Source of the DNA: Chloroflexota bacterium
GTDB lineage: Bacteria; Chloroflexota; Dehalococcoidia; Lucifugimonadales; UBA826
Length of the DNA stretch: 60,378 bases
Reading direction: 5' to 3'
Assembly: GCA_003228105.1 (NCBI GenBank)
Contig: QGNN01000006.1
Coordinates: 1 to 60,378 of the forward strand
Shown here: positions 2,324 through 24,537 of the stretch, piece after piece
How positions within the stretch are numbered: the first letter of the stretch is position 1
Layout: each line of letters opens with the position of its first letter
Made by a program: the position numbers and the translations under genes
Notes under the pieces: model-generated
What the model saw: only the letters and a program-made list of their open reading frames with translations
The model's database searches: none
Told to the model about the DNA's origin: nothing

Positions 2324-3097
2324 TTACACCAATGGCCACGGTATGTTCACATTAGGATCCAGAATGGGCATGATAGGATTTTCAATAATTCGATCCAGCC
2401 TTGTGGCCAATGCCTTTATTTCTTCAACGCTGATTAGCAATCCTAGGGAATTATAGTCTTCATTTAAATAGGTTCTTAAATTTTCCATATCGGCTATGAG
2501 GCTTGGAGGTATTTCCTGACCACAATATTCCATCATCACGGTACGCATCTTGAATGCGGTGTGAAAAGTCAAACCGTGATCAATGGACCATATATTTTTA
2601 ACCTCGTCAAGTAAACAATGCCCAGCTTTCCTGTCTGCATTATTAACCAGTAGGTCGAATACTGCCAAAGGGAACAGGCTATCAGGGAAGTCATCTCTCA
2701 TATCGAAATATGTGATACGTGGGTCGCAATCCAGATAGAGTTGCATGGAACCCACACCATACGGACCATCTCTTATTATGGTCAGTGGGATCTTAGGCCA
2801 GCCTAATAGTTTACTAACTTCATATGCGGCTTGTTCTCTTTTGTACAAGGAGCCGGCGGGAAAATCCCGGAGTGGTTTTTCACCCTCTCTAGGCTTATAA
2901 ATAGCCCTCACACATTGATTTTCCCCAGCATTGACCCAAAGGAGAAAAGTATAATTGGAGCCCCAGGGCATAGTGTGACCACCGATGACCTCCCCTTTTG
3001 TCAAAGGTGCTAAAGCTTCGGTAGGTTCCAAATTTAATATTTCCGCCTCAGGCAGTGGAAAGTTTTCTCTTGGATCAATTGGATACTGAGTTGGCAT
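2324..3097 (-). CDS. SCO1664/TIGR03843-family protein (PI3/4-kinase-like fold)
   Basis: The 257-residue protein looks like the SCO1664 family, best known from Actinobacteria and distantly related to phosphoinositide-3/4-kinase-like phosphotransferases. Supporting motifs are ADRKAGH near residue 155 (catalytic-loop-like) and SIDHGLTFH near residue 170 (metal-binding-loop-like). An N-terminal strand-rich part contains RAIYKPREGEKPLRDFP, resembling a nucleotide-binding lobe. It lies 24 bp downstream of a DUF3090 gene, the partner with which this family usually occurs. Substrate and cellular role are not established, and the kinase-like reading is by motif only. Confidence 0.8.
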   Translation of the reverse strand: MPTQYPIDPRENFPLPEAEILNLEPTEALAPLTKGEVIGGHTMPWGSNYTFLLWVNAGENQCVRAIYKPREGEKPLRDFPAGSLYKREQAAYEVSKLLGWPKIPLTIIRDGPYGVGSMQLYLDCDPRITYFDMRDDFPDSLFPLAVFDLLVNNADRKAGHCLLDEVKNIWSIDHGLTFHTAFKMRTVMMEYCGQEIPPSLIADMENLRTYLNEDYNSLGLLISVEEIKALATRLDRIIENPIMPILDPNVNIPWPLV

Positions 3098-3121
3098 AGT
3101 TTTTAAATTTGAAAAACCAGA

Positions 3122-3640
3122 TTAGAGCTCTCCTGGATAAACTCTTGCATGGCCATTTCTTCGAACACAGTAATGACCATCAGGGTTGATAGGGTTTTCA
3201 CATAATGGACATAGTGCCCTTCCAGAAGCAACTATTTCCATTCCGGTCTTGGCAAAATTTTTAATTGTTTCTCGAGTTAACCATATCCTTATTGTAGGTT
3301 CTTCAGAATCATCTTCTGGATCGTGAGCATCAATTATGAACATATTTGTCTCGGGATTGTGCCCAAGGGCCAATCGGCCTGCTTTGAAATCCAAATTTGT
3401 TAAACCTGCAGCTTCCAGTTCCGTCGGCGGGTCTATGGCATCTTCTTTAGCTTTAAGGGTTTCCTTTGACAATTGGAGCATTGTGATCGATAGTTCCGCC
3501 AGCTGTTCTTTTTCCAACCAGATAGTTGCTGTACTGCTTGAACTGTCCACATTTATCCGAAAAGTTCTCGTGCCTGGTTCACCAAATGTTTCAGGTAAAA
3601 ATTTTGTTACTTGTGTGAACTCATTACTAGGTCCAACCAT
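3122..3640 (-). CDS. DUF3090 (TIGR03847) family protein
   Basis: A 172-residue protein matching the DUF3090 family. The N-terminal part contains GEPGTRTFRINVDSSSSTATIWLEKEQL, cited here only in part as RTFRINVD and IWLEKEQL. The C-terminus carries a zinc-ribbon-like CPLCENPINPDGHYC with the typical trailing RRNGH. Function is unknown. In Actinobacteria it is encoded next to SCO1664-like and phosphoglycerate-mutase-like genes near mycothiol genes. Here the SCO1664-like gene follows immediately on the same strand, so the pair is conserved, but no mshC or mutase gene is present nearby. Confidence 0.82.
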   Translation of the reverse strand: MVGPSNEFTQVTKFLPETFGEPGTRTFRINVDSSSSTATIWLEKEQLAELSITMLQLSKETLKAKEDAIDPPTELEAAGLTNLDFKAGRLALGHNPETNMFIIDAHDPEDDSEEPTIRIWLTRETIKNFAKTGMEIVASGRALCPLCENPINPDGHYCVRRNGHARVYPGEL

Positions 3641-3805
3641 GGGTACTCCGAAAAATGTGCCTTAGCTCATCGAATTGGAACATTAGATATAAATTACAGT
3701 CTAACGGGAATGGTAGGTCTTTTGTGAGGTTTGTAGCAACATTAAACTGTTGGTTACTGGACTTCTATACTAAACGAGAATGTCCTGTGTGTTACAATTC
3801 GCACC

Positions 3806-3834
3806 TGCGTTGCCGAATGGCACGCATTTTTATT
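3806..3834 (+). terminator. Terminator-like hairpin in the rpsU leader
   Basis: TGCGT-(T)-GCC pairs with GGC-ACGCA around a GAAT tetraloop with one bulged T, and TTTTTATTT follows directly. This is the form of a Rho-independent terminator on the plus strand. A weaker GTGTG/CGCAC hairpin lies just before it (3786-3804). A TATACT hexamer at about 3766-3771 could be the -10 box of a leader transcript. No plus-strand gene upstream needs a terminator here, so attenuation ahead of rpsU is the simplest reading, but it is inferred. Confidence 0.5.
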
Positions 3835-3865
3835 TGGCTGAAAATTAGAGACTAGGAGAAAAAGC

Positions 3866-4057
3866 TTGGCATACGTTACCCTTCGCGAAGGCGAGGAGGC
3901 TGAAGTACTACTCAAGAGATTCCAGACCCAGATGCAAAGATCGGGTATTCTAAGAGAGTTGAGGAACAGAAGATTTTTCCGTTCTAAAGGTGAACAGTCT
4001 CGGCTTGACATACAGCGAAGCATCCGCAGGCTTCGAAGGCGTCGAACTAGACGGTAA
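3866..4057 (+). CDS. rpsU: 30S ribosomal protein bS21
   Basis: A 63-residue, strongly basic protein with the bS21 opening TLREGEEAEVLLKRFQTQMQ followed by a central GILRELRNRRFF and an arginine-rich tail (RRLRRRRTRR). bS21 joins the small subunit near the anti-Shine-Dalgarno region. The start is TTG at 3866, chosen because AGGAG (3854-3858) lies 7 nt upstream and the family begins at this point. A terminator-like hairpin precedes the ribosome-binding site, suggesting leader control. Confidence 0.9.
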   Translation: MAYVTLREGEEAEVLLKRFQTQMQRSGILRELRNRRFFRSKGEQSRLDIQRSIRRLRRRRTRR

Positions 4058-4127
4058 TAATTTCCAGCTACGCATTCAACAATCGCTAAACAGGTTGATT
4101 GATTTTAACCTATGGTAGGTGCGTCAA

Positions 4128-5087
4128 ATGGGTATCCTCTACGTCGTTTCAGATACTGACAGAGCAGGCAAAACTTCTTTTTGTGCCTCATTAGCTAGCC
4201 TCCTAATGGATATGGGCCACAAGGTTTCTGTTTCCAAAGCCATTTTCTCAGAACAAGATAAAGAAGACCTAGATCGCTACTGTTCTGTATTAGGTTCAAA
4301 TTTCATTAAATTATCTGGGCAATCTTTTGATGTGTCAGCTGTTGGTGCAGAGATTAAGTCTGCGGCTAAGGAGGTTGATACTCTTTTGGTGGAAGCATCA
4401 AATACGTTGTCCAGAGATGAACATACTGACCTTGTTAAAAACATTGGGGCAAAAGTCATACATGTGACTAAATACGACGAGGCGATTGGGTCCATTCCAT
4501 TCGGCACCTCTTTTGGTCAGGATCTAATTGGGACGGTGCTAAATTTTTTGACTAGATACAAAACAACTGAAGCCTACGAAATAGTAATACCTAGGTTGGA
4601 AAAATCTGGAATACCCGTTTTGGGGTTGATACCTGAGAATAGGACTTTGTTAAGCCTAACTGTAAAACAGATTTGTGAGAGTCTGGAGGGCACATTTGTT
4701 GATGGCGAGGAATACGGGGAAGATTTGGTAGAAAGTTTCATGGTCGGTGGTTTTGGAATGGATCCAGGACAATACATATTCAGCCGGCAGGATAAGAAAG
4801 CTGTGGTGGTTCGAGGAGATAGGCCCGATGTCCAAATGTCTGCTTTAGACACCGACATGGAATGTTTCATAATGACTGGCGGTCTTGAGCCGATCGAGTA
4901 CGTTAAATATGAAGCTAATGAGGAAGAGGTTTCTATTATCATTGTTAACTCGGACACCCTTGAAACAATGGATAAAATAGGGACACTTCAAGAACACTCG
5001 GAATTTGATCACAAAGATAAATTAGCTAGGTTTAAGAATCTCATCTCTAGCAACATCGATGTTGAAGGATTGAAGTCAGTCCTTTAA
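4128..5087 (+). CDS. P-loop protein with DRTGG-type C-terminal domain
   Basis: About 319 residues from ATG 4128; an in-frame GTG at 4119 would add MRQ. The N-terminus is a BioD/dethiobiotin-synthetase-like P-loop domain, with DTDRAGKTSFCASLASLL as the Walker A region at residues 8-25 and switch-like DTLLVEASNT later. The C-terminal third (from about residue 210) resembles the DRTGG domain seen in phosphotransacetylase N-termini and CBS/DHH proteins, with DRPDVQMSALDTDMECFIMT in place of the eponymous motif. The family is usually annotated as phosphotransacetylase-like or DRTGG protein without a defined activity. It follows rpsU after 70 bp; no pta or ackA gene is adjacent. Confidence 0.65.
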   Translation: MGILYVVSDTDRAGKTSFCASLASLLMDMGHKVSVSKAIFSEQDKEDLDRYCSVLGSNFIKLSGQSFDVSAVGAEIKSAAKEVDTLLVEASNTLSRDEHTDLVKNIGAKVIHVTKYDEAIGSIPFGTSFGQDLIGTVLNFLTRYKTTEAYEIVIPRLEKSGIPVLGLIPENRTLLSLTVKQICESLEGTFVDGEEYGEDLVESFMVGGFGMDPGQYIFSRQDKKAVVVRGDRPDVQMSALDTDMECFIMTGGLEPIEYVKYEANEEEVSIIIVNSDTLETMDKIGTLQEHSEFDHKDKLARFKNLISSNIDVEGLKSVL

Positions 5088-5100
5088 ATTCTTGGTTGTC

Positions 5101-6813
5101 TTATAGCCCTTCAGCATGGGCTGCGTGGAAGGTGTCGACACCTCCTCTAAATTCACCCCCATTTTTGGTAATAGCCACAGGGCTCGCGAATTTTGCAAAC
5201 CCAGTTTGAGTGAATCCGTCACCGAGAACCCTAATACTGTGACCCTTAGCCTTTAAGCCGGCAACAGTATTTGGGTCGAGTTCTGGGCCCACATCAGTTG
5301 CTGGAGAGCTGCAATCCACTCTGGGAGCATCAATTGCGGTTTGGGGATTCATGTTGAAATCAACCATTTTTACTATTAACGATGTGACACAATTGGTTAT
5401 TCTTCTTCCGCCGGAGGCTCCAACAGCAATTTCCACGCCATCTTTTCCTAACACCAAAGCCGGGGTCATATTATTTAATGGGTATTTTCCTGAGGCTATA
5501 GAGTTAACCCTGTTTGGTGTAGGGTCATACCACATCATCCCGTTATTCATAACAATTCCAGTTCCTTTGGGAATTATTCCGGACCCAAACCCTGACATTA
5601 TCGTGTTGGTAATAGAAACAGCATTACCGTCACCGTCAATTACCGCCAGGTGAGTTGTTCCGTTGTCAGGGCGTGGCCTGCTACTCTCTAAGACGAATTT
5701 TGGTTCCCTACCTTCTTCAATCCATGGATTTCCCGGAAGGAAAGATTCGGGAACATGATTTCCTATTTCCTTCTGTCTTTTTTGGGTGTATTTATCGGAA
5801 ACTAAACCGTTCCATGGGACATCTGCGTATTCGGGGTCTGCCACATATTCAAACCTATCGGCGTATGCCATTCTGGCGGCACTGATGTACAGATGCAACA
5901 TGTCGACTGAGTTATGGCCTAAACTAGGAATATCAAACCCGTCTAGGATTTTTAAGGTCATAGCGCTGGTTATACCGGCGGAAGCATATCTTGGGACTCT
6001 CACGGTTTTGCCGTGATAATTAAATTCTAAGCCTTTGTCCCAATAGAATGGCTTGTACTGATCAAAATCTTCCATTGTTAGGAAGCCACCATTTTTTTGT
6101 ATATCTTCAACCAGAACTTCCGTTAGTTCCCCCCGATAAAAGGCATTAACTCCTCCTCTACCGATTGCCTCAAGGGCATTTGCTAAATTCGGCTGTTTTA
6201 AGACATGTGGACCGTCGATTCCACCATAGGGCAGCGACCCAGATGGCATAAATGTGTTGCCTAATTCTGGATATCGTAAAAGCATGCTTGAAAGACTTCC
6301 AAATTTATATAAGGTGAACCATTCGGGATGAAATCCATCACGGGCTATTTTGGTGGCTGGTGCCACAACTTCTGATAAAGGCAATTTTCCAAACCGAGAA
6401 TGAGCTTCGACTAAACCAGCAACACACCCAGGTACTGCAATCGATTTGTACCCGTGAATGTTTTCGTCATTTTTGACGCCCGCCCAACCAAAACTTCCCA
6501 CGGATGCTTCACCAGTTAGCTCGTACAAATCAGGTTTACCGGATAATGGTCCCTTCATAGGAAACCCGATGACACCACCTTCGTCACCAACCTGAAATGT
6601 CATATAGCCACCGCCACCGATACCACTTGATTCGGGTTCTACTACACCTACAGCCAGACAAGCAGCTACACCTGCATCGATAGCGTTGCCTCCCATTTTC
6701 AGCATATCCAACCCTGCTTGGGTGGATAATTGGTCTTTAGTTGCCACCATACTGTTAGTGGACACCGCTTCACTTTTAGTGAAGGTGGAGTTAGAAGCTA
6801 AGTCGGTAACCAT
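5101..6813 (-). CDS. ggt: Gamma-glutamyltransferase family protein
   Basis: The 570-residue Ntn-hydrolase of the gamma-glutamyltranspeptidase family acts on glutathione or other gamma-glutamyl compounds. The proenzyme self-cleaves before the nucleophilic threonine, here in NGTTHLAVIDGDGNAVSIT at about residue 386. The large-subunit signatures GNAIDAGVAACLAVGVVEPE and the small-subunit SGGRRIT are present. No signal peptide is visible at the N-terminus (MVTDLASNSTF), so a cytoplasmic location is likelier than the periplasmic one of the E. coli enzyme. Substrate may differ from glutathione: many such paralogues are only loosely characterised. Confidence 0.9.
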   Translation of the reverse strand: MVTDLASNSTFTKSEAVSTNSMVATKDQLSTQAGLDMLKMGGNAIDAGVAACLAVGVVEPESSGIGGGGYMTFQVGDEGGVIGFPMKGPLSGKPDLYELTGEASVGSFGWAGVKNDENIHGYKSIAVPGCVAGLVEAHSRFGKLPLSEVVAPATKIARDGFHPEWFTLYKFGSLSSMLLRYPELGNTFMPSGSLPYGGIDGPHVLKQPNLANALEAIGRGGVNAFYRGELTEVLVEDIQKNGGFLTMEDFDQYKPFYWDKGLEFNYHGKTVRVPRYASAGITSAMTLKILDGFDIPSLGHNSVDMLHLYISAARMAYADRFEYVADPEYADVPWNGLVSDKYTQKRQKEIGNHVPESFLPGNPWIEEGREPKFVLESSRPRPDNGTTHLAVIDGDGNAVSITNTIMSGFGSGIIPKGTGIVMNNGMMWYDPTPNRVNSIASGKYPLNNMTPALVLGKDGVEIAVGASGGRRITNCVTSLIVKMVDFNMNPQTAIDAPRVDCSSPATDVGPELDPNTVAGLKAKGHSIRVLGDGFTQTGFAKFASPVAITKNGGEFRGGVDTFHAAHAEGL

Positions 6814-23025: not shown

Positions 23026-24537
23026 ATGAATAAAGTATTGTTTTTTTTGATAGGTTTATTGTCTTTCTTGTTATTCGCTTGTGGTTCCGATTCAGAAATT
23101 GATTCGTCTGTAATATTAGAAATTGAGACTACCCCCATCGTTGAGATGATATCTACGGCCAAACCTGCAATTACCCAATTATCCCCTATCACACCGATAG
23201 CTATCCAACCGATGACTACTCAAATGGTTGTACCAACAAAGGTGCCTCAAACAAAGGTGCTTCAAAAATCCATAACCCAAGATAATAAAATTAGTTCCGG
23301 GGAGCCGGATTCAAAATCAGTGCTTGAAATCATTTCCCGTCTGAAAGAGGAGCTAAACAACGGGTACTCACACCATTCAATTTTGAACATGAATATGGCT
23401 ATTTCATTTGACGATTACTTGGAAGATATGCCATTGCTAATGGAGGGAGATGTTCAAAATTCCCGTAATTTCAAAGGAGTCACTTCTTTTGAAGATAATA
23501 ATCAAATCAAAACGATCGAAATGATCGTCTTTGATCAGGATACCTTTGCCAAATATCCTGATACCAAATATTGGATCCAGTTTCCAGAAGGTCAAACCCC
23601 TGTAACCCCCATATCGATAATTGAATTGCTAAAAAACAATTTTGTTCAAGGGGAACTCACTGGTATTGAAAATTCTGGTGGTGTCTCTTCCCAACATATT
23701 AGCAGTGAACTTGAGTCAAAGATTTTTGGTGAGTTACTGCCGGTACTGGATGACTCCACAGGTATTTTGCAAGTGGATATGTGGGTTGAACCTGATAGCT
23801 TGCAAATAGGTAGATTATTAATTAATGGATTGGTTATAGGGGGGCCTAGAGTTAAAGGCCCTGACGGACAAGAGATAACGATTAAGGTTGATATTGAAAT
23901 GTCATCATGGGATTTTGGAAAACTGGTTGAGTTAGCTAAACCGGATTTACCAGCTTCTCCTGAACCGATGGTTTGGGATTTACCACCTGAAATGATGTTG
24001 GATTTGGACCAAGATTATTCTGCCATCATTAAAATATATGGGGGAGGGGAAATAAAGATTGATCTTTTGCAAGATGAAGCCCCAGTGACTGTCAACAATT
24101 TTATTTTTCTTTCCAATCAGGGCTATTATGACTGGGTCACCTTTCATAGAGTAATCCCTGATTTTATGGCCCAAGGGGGTGATCCTTCGGGTACAGGCCG
24201 TGGTGGTCCTGGGTACCACATAGATAATGAATTTCACCCTGATGCGAGACATAACTCTGCTGGGGTAGTTTCGATGGCAAATTCGGGGCTTCGGCCGGAT
24301 GGTCACGGTACCAGCGGAAGTCAATTTTTCATCACATATAGGGAGGCACCATTTTTGGATGGATTGAATCCAGATGGGACTATAAAGGACTGTAACAATG
24401 GCTCTTGCCATTCGGTGTTTGGAAGACTTCTAGAAGGCATGGAGGTTTTGGGAAGCATCATTCCTCGAGATCCTGAAACTACCAAGTTACCAGGCGATGT
24501 CATTGAGAGTATTGAAATTATTTCGACACCAAAATAA
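23026..24537 (+). CDS. Lipoprotein with LppX/LprG-like and cyclophilin domains
   Basis: The 503-residue protein has a lipoprotein signal peptide (hydrophobic residues 4-17, lipobox LFAC with Cys19), so it should be anchored outside the membrane. A Thr/Pro/Gln-rich linker runs to about residue 95. Residues of about 100-305 resemble the LppX_LprAFG lipid-carrier fold (GVTSFEDNNQIKTIEMIVFD, then ILQVDMWVEPDSLQIGRLLI). Residues of about 335-503 are a cyclophilin peptidyl-prolyl isomerase with TFHRVIPDFMAQGGDPSGTG and the catalytic FHR arginine. The lipid-carrier match is weaker than the cyclophilin one. The domain pairing is unusual. Confidence 0.82.
   Translation: MNKVLFFLIGLLSFLLFACGSDSEIDSSVILEIETTPIVEMISTAKPAITQLSPITPIAIQPMTTQMVVPTKVPQTKVLQKSITQDNKISSGEPDSKSVLEIISRLKEELNNGYSHHSILNMNMAISFDDYLEDMPLLMEGDVQNSRNFKGVTSFEDNNQIKTIEMIVFDQDTFAKYPDTKYWIQFPEGQTPVTPISIIELLKNNFVQGELTGIENSGGVSSQHISSELESKIFGELLPVLDDSTGILQVDMWVEPDSLQIGRLLINGLVIGGPRVKGPDGQEITIKVDIEMSSWDFGKLVELAKPDLPASPEPMVWDLPPEMMLDLDQDYSAIIKIYGGGEIKIDLLQDEAPVTVNNFIFLSNQGYYDWVTFHRVIPDFMAQGGDPSGTGRGGPGYHIDNEFHPDARHNSAGVVSMANSGLRPDGHGTSGSQFFITYREAPFLDGLNPDGTIKDCNNGSCHSVFGRLLEGMEVLGSIIPRDPETTKLPGDVIESIEIISTPK

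Follow-up and report, generated by a model that had tools for sequence, protein, structure and literature searches.

The window, by which we mean the whole 60,378-nucleotide stretch of DNA analysed, carries a gene for a predicted lipoprotein that joins an LppX/LprG-type domain to a cyclophilin-type PPIase domain in a single polypeptide. This pairing had been proposed in a preliminary description of the same DNA and is borne out by the gene itself, which forms one open reading frame (ORF) with a signal sequence ending at Cys19 and matches both Pfam families. The host is a marine bacterium of the SAR202 type within the Dehalococcoidia. Across its order, profile matches indicate that the LppX-like part is combined with several other exported proteins, and comparison of close relatives reveals that the cyclophilin half has moved between lineages.

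Architecture of the LppX-cyclophilin protein

Table 1. Positions in the window of the LppX-cyclophilin gene, its parts and the associated recombination tract.
Feature	Position	Strand	Details	Basis
Whole gene, predicted lipoprotein with LppX/LprG-like domain and cyclophilin	23026..24537	+	503 aa, ATG start	ORF list, Pfam, relatives
Predicted signal peptide	23026..23082	+	Lipobox-type L-F-A-C, Cys19 codon 23080-23082	Direct sequence reading
Linker	23083..23307	+	75 residues (20-94), rich in Ile, Thr, Ser and Pro	Composition
LppX/LprG/LprF-type domain	23308..23961	+	Residues 95-312	Pfam, profile search, model comparison
Cyclophilin-type PPIase domain	24013..24534 (Pfam core 24040-24462)	+	Residues 330-503	Pfam, motifs, alignment with solved cyclophilins
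Cys456-to-Cys461 stretch	24391..24408	+	Loop insert directly before the active-site-type His462	Alignment rows
Recombination tract (approximate)	23900..24450		Window and near relatives differ in ancestry	DNA identity comparison

The N terminus of the 503-residue protein reads as a lipoprotein signal, with Phe, which is not the commonest letter, at lipobox position -2. The signal sequences of relatives, as read from their letters, mostly end in Cys too. Family searches of the window's genome returned one strong match to Lgt and likewise one to LspA, so lipoprotein processing is to be expected, and we infer that the protein would be anchored through a lipidated Cys19. Signal and linker together (residues 1-94) evolve fast, with pairwise identities of 22-90% within the genus. 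In an NCBIfam scan of the protein, a selenolipoprotein model matched this region weakly and far under its cut-off, and the cyclophilin models stayed under theirs; PADLOC found no system.

In the whole chain, PF07161 (LppX_LprAFG) matched residues 122-266 with an E value of 6.5e-5 and 23.3 bits, against a cut-off of 24. Residues 95-312 alone scored 26.4 bits (E = 7.6e-6), and the gene scored 25.4 bits in a search of the whole genome, both above the cut-off. Among the domains of 17 relatives, 12 matched PF07161 (best E = 9.5e-14) and 5 gave no match at a limit of E = 1, and the family was found in none of 14 control genomes. One member of the domain alignment weakly matched DUF2092 (E = 0.055). 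Searching all PDB sequences with a profile of 17 domains retrieved three chains at E ≤ 10, two of LprG (0.0036 and 0.023) and one of LprF (0.26); the single domain sequence retrieved no PDB match at the same limit. The domain's C-terminal F-G-x-x-V ... P end is kept in relatives and aligns with LprG and LprF too.

AlphaFold was run with eight alignment rows, once on the domain and once on residues 90-503. The domain model was modest to weak (mean pLDDT 57.4, pTM 0.60), with model residues 36-94 (residues 130-188 of the protein) poor; the longer model was poor overall (pLDDT 44.4), and its cyclophilin half and domain placement were unusable. For both models, the nine best Foldseek matches in the PDB were all LprG, LprF or LppX, with TM-scores of the domain model to these solved relatives being low (0.33-0.45, r.m.s.d. 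8-12 Å). VIA-align of the weak domain model returned LprG (Z 10.1, 161 residues, 4.1 Å), LppX (Z 9.8, 154 residues, 4.2 Å) and LprF (Z 9.3, 160 residues, 4.5 Å), followed by Z 6.8 for an ApoB barrel and RseB and about 6 for LolA types; the tool notes that a Z under 8 may reflect merely a common arrangement. Fold prediction, which the preliminary description had proposed for residues 95-310 and which we ran on 95-312, thus places LprG, LppX and LprF above all else (Z 9.3-10.1 against 6.8 for the next), on weak models. The predicted LppX/LprG-type fold of residues 95-312 stands, with Pfam, sequence profile and weak model in agreement.

The C-terminal half matched the cyclophilin family PF00160 over residues 339-479 (E = 4.5e-37, 128.2 bits against a cut-off of 21.7) and aligns with solved PPIL1-type cyclophilins. 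The canonical active-site motifs FHRVIPDFMAQGGD, GSQFFI and a His before SVFG are kept, in agreement with the patterns FHRxI..FxxQGGD (Arg included), GSQFFI and a His preceding xVFG, and the domain is predicted to be active as a PPIase. Within these motifs we assigned what we take to be the catalytic residues, for example the Arg of FHRxI..FxxQGGD. The alignment column that we take to be the usual Trp position of cyclophilins holds Phe here and is variable among relatives.

A loop with two Cys residues (Cys456 and Cys461 here), possibly joined by a disulphide, occurs in 33 of the order's 42 cyclophilin rows when masked letters are allowed, comprising 19/25 fused, 9/9 unfused lipoprotein-type and 5/8 other rows. 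The six fused rows without this loop are fusions from family f6, and none of the 12 cyclophilin rows from the rest of the class has it. Among the unfused cyclophilin rows collected from the order, 9 of 17 match a lipobox-like pattern, so anchored cyclophilins are not uncommon in this order. The preliminary description had called a surface-anchored cyclophilin uncommon in itself; the same rows contradict this for the order and rule out an unusually rare anchored cyclophilin.

Conservation, exchange and reuse of the two domains

Of the 16 genomes examined from the window's family (its own and 15 others), 14 encode the two domains in a single ORF, among them a front-cut ORF of 305 aa in G001. In G009, the orthologue (L017) is laid out in the same way and carries a single in-frame TGA in its cyclophilin part, which may be a sequencing error or decay, and G002 holds fragments only, on two contigs. 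The gene is also full length, with the same neighbours, at six loci in metagenome-assembled genome records of the SAR202 cluster, Dehalococcoidia or Chloroflexi, at least some of which are the same assemblies as the family genomes and add no extra evidence. The neighbouring genes of the window resemble, by eye, those for Nuo subunits, SDR, GNAT, NHL and the like. Those named by eye as NHL, GNAT, two SDRs, TrmL-type and JAMM-type keep their order in seven loci, as far as each locus reaches. The one-ORF layout in these 14 genomes and the conserved neighbours mean that the pairing is not due to chance; they also rule out an artefact of ORF calling or fusion. Relatives, to whose architectures the preliminary description had pointed as a check, thus share the pairing. 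At one locus of a related genus (L039), about 3.4 kb of other sequence (about 2402-5794) separates the LppX-cyclophilin gene from the NHL gene.

Most neighbouring genes encode products that are better conserved than this protein, whose identity to G007 is 86% against 88-100% for the neighbours, and to G006 63% against 65-97%. Its LppX-like domain is 95% identical between the window and G007, and the low identity of the whole protein to G007 arises because the cyclophilin half was exchanged. At the DNA level, identity between the window and G007 is 94-99% as far as about 23,800, falls to 75-85% from about 23,920 to 24,520, and returns to 90-98% downstream. G007, G005 and G003 have the reverse pattern when compared with G004, with 43-81% identity before and 87-97% over most of the cyclophilin part, and 70-86% from about 24,720 on. 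These reversed patterns delimit a tract of ~500-800 bases, with homologous stretches in L034, L035, L036 and L038, that carries the cyclophilin half and was exchanged between species lineages within the genus, in one direction or the other. The left end of the tract lies near the domain junction, and the right end lies at about 24450-24500 in G007, near the gene end, and at about 24700 in G005 and G003, inside the next gene. One event is no proof that recombination is favoured at the domain junction.

The nearest relatives of the window's cyclophilin half in a tree of 54 cyclophilin domains are unfused cyclophilins from the same order. On this tree, the fused label needs 8 changes when every row is included, 7 when L017 is left out and 6 when L128 is dropped as well. 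Both of these rows carry a doubtful unfused label, L017 because its in-frame TGA splits a fused gene, and L128 because this cyclophilin ORF stands directly behind an LppX-like ORF and falls in a fusion clade. Well-supported branches force at least 5 changes with both rows included, a bound that could drop if they are left out. The fused and unfused cyclophilins of G030 are sisters (support 99/89). Given the 6-8 label changes, the fusion has probably been made or lost repeatedly; changes may be gains or losses, tree sampling is selective and L067 is a long branch, and we claim no number of gains.

In the order, at least 101 of the 197 genomes searched had matches to the domain profile; many of the matches listed fall in ORFs of about 240-350 aa, which leave no room for a large partner. 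At the level of the class, at least 38 of 197 genomes gave a PF07161 match, a figure that is a lower bound because G000 was counted as 0 and yet yielded two matches in a dedicated, looser search. Cyclophilin fusions make up 27 of 56 distinct ORFs, a set whose long members were chosen by hand and that therefore gives no prevalence.

Outside the window's family, two profiles applied to chosen long ORFs located an LppX-like domain together with a cyclophilin in families f9 (L029, L030), f16 (L088) and f23 (L089), and in f32 (L022) with Kelch repeats behind. Family f6 has the pair with about 230 unexplained residues in between (L090, L114, L116, L117, L119, L127), and the fetched stretch of L115, also from f6, ends within the cyclophilin. 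In G020 (f6), the cyclophilin (L128) has an ORF of its own, which follows immediately on an LppX-like ORF of 598 aa. Profile comparison returned no match to the LppX profile in the 226-residue stretch between the LppX and cyclophilin parts of L116 (f6), nor in the 403 residues ahead of the LppX match in L089.

The LppX-like module also stands ahead of DUF3105 (L113 and L129 by Pfam; L130-L132 and L136 by eye), Kelch repeats (L118, L134, L138), Peripla_BP_6 (L133) and OpuAC/LRR/PPC (L139); in several such ORFs, the LppX-like part was found by our own profile, with Pfam giving nothing or a match below its cut-off. L141 is also among the ORFs that join an LppX-like domain to DUF3105-, substrate-binding-, Kelch-, LRR/OpuAC- or PPC-like parts. 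The window's genome itself has two further LppX-like ORFs: L041 on contig 7, short and of lipoprotein type, and L140 on contig 43, whose PPC match stays below the cut-off. Judged by these matches, the LppX-like module is a widely reused part that is joined to several exported proteins in this order, and its place ahead of unrelated domains implies no cyclophilin-specific lipid pathway.

Long cyclophilin ORFs from other parts of the class (L073-L081) were considered as further fusion candidates and rejected, since L077 and L078 are double cyclophilins and the other seven have no match to the LppX profile. L077 and L078 (class family f59; 472 and 481 aa) each have two cyclophilin domains, the first without the usual motifs, and adjoin a third cyclophilin ORF.

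Proposed function and alternatives

With confidence slightly above even, we read the protein as a membrane-tethered extracytoplasmic foldase that carries a reusable hydrophobic-ligand module; its lipidation, PPIase activity, ligand and domain coupling are all predicted. After Sec export, Lgt and LspA would lipidate Cys19, and a flexible linker would keep the LppX/LprG-fold domain near the membrane surface. There, this domain would hold a lipid or other hydrophobic group, and the cyclophilin behind it would isomerise prolines of exported proteins. The LppX-fold domain would then be a reusable membrane-proximal module, which this lineage combines with different extracytoplasmic domains. This reading draws on the matches to both domain families, the LppX-type fold of the weak models, the cyclophilin motifs, the Lgt and LspA matches, the conservation of gene and neighbours in the family, and the reuse of the module. 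Against it count the weakness of the models, the fast divergence of the N-terminal domain and the neighbouring genes, which give no functional hint.

More broadly, and rather doubtfully, the lipid-binding module with the LppX/LprG fold could be a general membrane-proximal adaptor of SAR202-type Chloroflexota, combined time and again with exported enzymes, propellers and binding proteins, with the foldase here responding to or working on lipid-bearing surface clients in a cell without an outer membrane. If so, the LppX fold would have a role outside lipid export.

Three alternatives to a tethered foldase with a ligand module were weighed. The LppX-fold domain might bind the hydrophobic stretches or acyl groups of clients, as in RseB or LolA, giving a two-part chaperone by analogy with foldases that pair a PPIase with a client-binding domain. 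Its partner here is a folding enzyme, the fused label changes 6-8 times on the cyclophilin tree, and RseB and LolA types rank among the structures that follow the LprG, LppX and LprF group (Z 6.8 and about 6; Foldseek ranks 10-13), all of which would fit. However, likeness at Z under 8 may mean just a common arrangement, as VIA-align itself notes, and the module also precedes domains with no known folding role, which leaves the two-part chaperone an unlikely reading.

The N-terminal domain diverges fast, the copies in the family's other genera being 22-36% identical to that of the window, so that a spacer is as compatible with its evolution as a specific binder. A passive spacer or stalk, lifting different domains off the membrane and holding no ligand, would agree with this low conservation, with the many partner domains and with the end of the recombination tract near the domain junction. 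It would not account for the retention of family-typical features, for example a C-terminal F-G-x-x-V ... P end with counterparts in LprG and LprF, or for the many matches in the order, among the matches listed, in ORFs of ~240-350 aa that are too short for a large partner; we hold it to be improbable.

The preliminary description saw in the pairing a sign of extracytoplasmic envelope biogenesis in a lineage with an unusual envelope. As an envelope lipid carrier, the LppX-like domain would ferry a lipid or glycolipid outward and the cyclophilin would assist a pathway partner, a reading that draws on the fold shared with LprG and LppX and on PDB entries of LprG whose titles include PIM-bound and triacylglyceride-bound forms, but to which we give little credence: no match to Omp85, the one family searched, was found in the window's genome (88.7% complete), no envelope genes were recognised by eye near the gene, the domain is joined to many unrelated partners, and lipidation would tether the protein and limit its range to that of the linker. 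PMC13319060 describes Chloroflexota as considered monoderm, with diderm-like envelope layers in some members. An envelope-biogenesis role is possible and is not supported by these observations, and the same holds for an unusual, outer-membrane-like envelope.

Comparison with known systems

Mycobacterial lipid shuttles are the main setting in which the LppX/LprG fold is known. To our knowledge, the host here is a member of the Chloroflexota without a mycolic envelope, unlike the mycobacterial hosts of LprG, LppX and LprF. With these lipoproteins (PF07161), the window's domain shares the predicted fold over nearly its whole length (Z 9.3-10.1 on a weak model), at 11-14% identity to the solved structures, and it differs from them in being fused to a catalytic domain and standing behind a long linker. 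LolA and RseB have a similar overall arrangement at Z values clearly lower than those of LprG and LppX, and are absent from the PDB sequence matches of the 17-domain profile.

On the cyclophilin side, Lactococcus PpiA and streptococcal SlrA are surface cyclophilins, as predicted here, from Gram-positive bacteria, and recombinant PpiA shows PPIase and chaperone activity in vitro, according to PMC3307742. The source texts, as far as they were accessible, mention no LppX-like domain for PpiA or SlrA; SAR202-type cyclophilins differ in having the two-Cys loop. Closer at hand, the unfused cyclophilins of the same order are the nearest relatives in the tree, most of them with the two-Cys loop and all without the LppX-like domain.

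The literature found under LppX_LprAFG was mycobacterial, and our search of open-licence literature returned no description of an LppX-cyclophilin fusion or of wide reuse of the module in this order. Both domain families were already known. That marine Chloroflexota have the LppX fold at the front of many exported proteins suggests a role wider than the export of lipids to a mycolic envelope, and these bacteria offer a non-pathogen system in which to ask what the LppX/LprG pocket is for.
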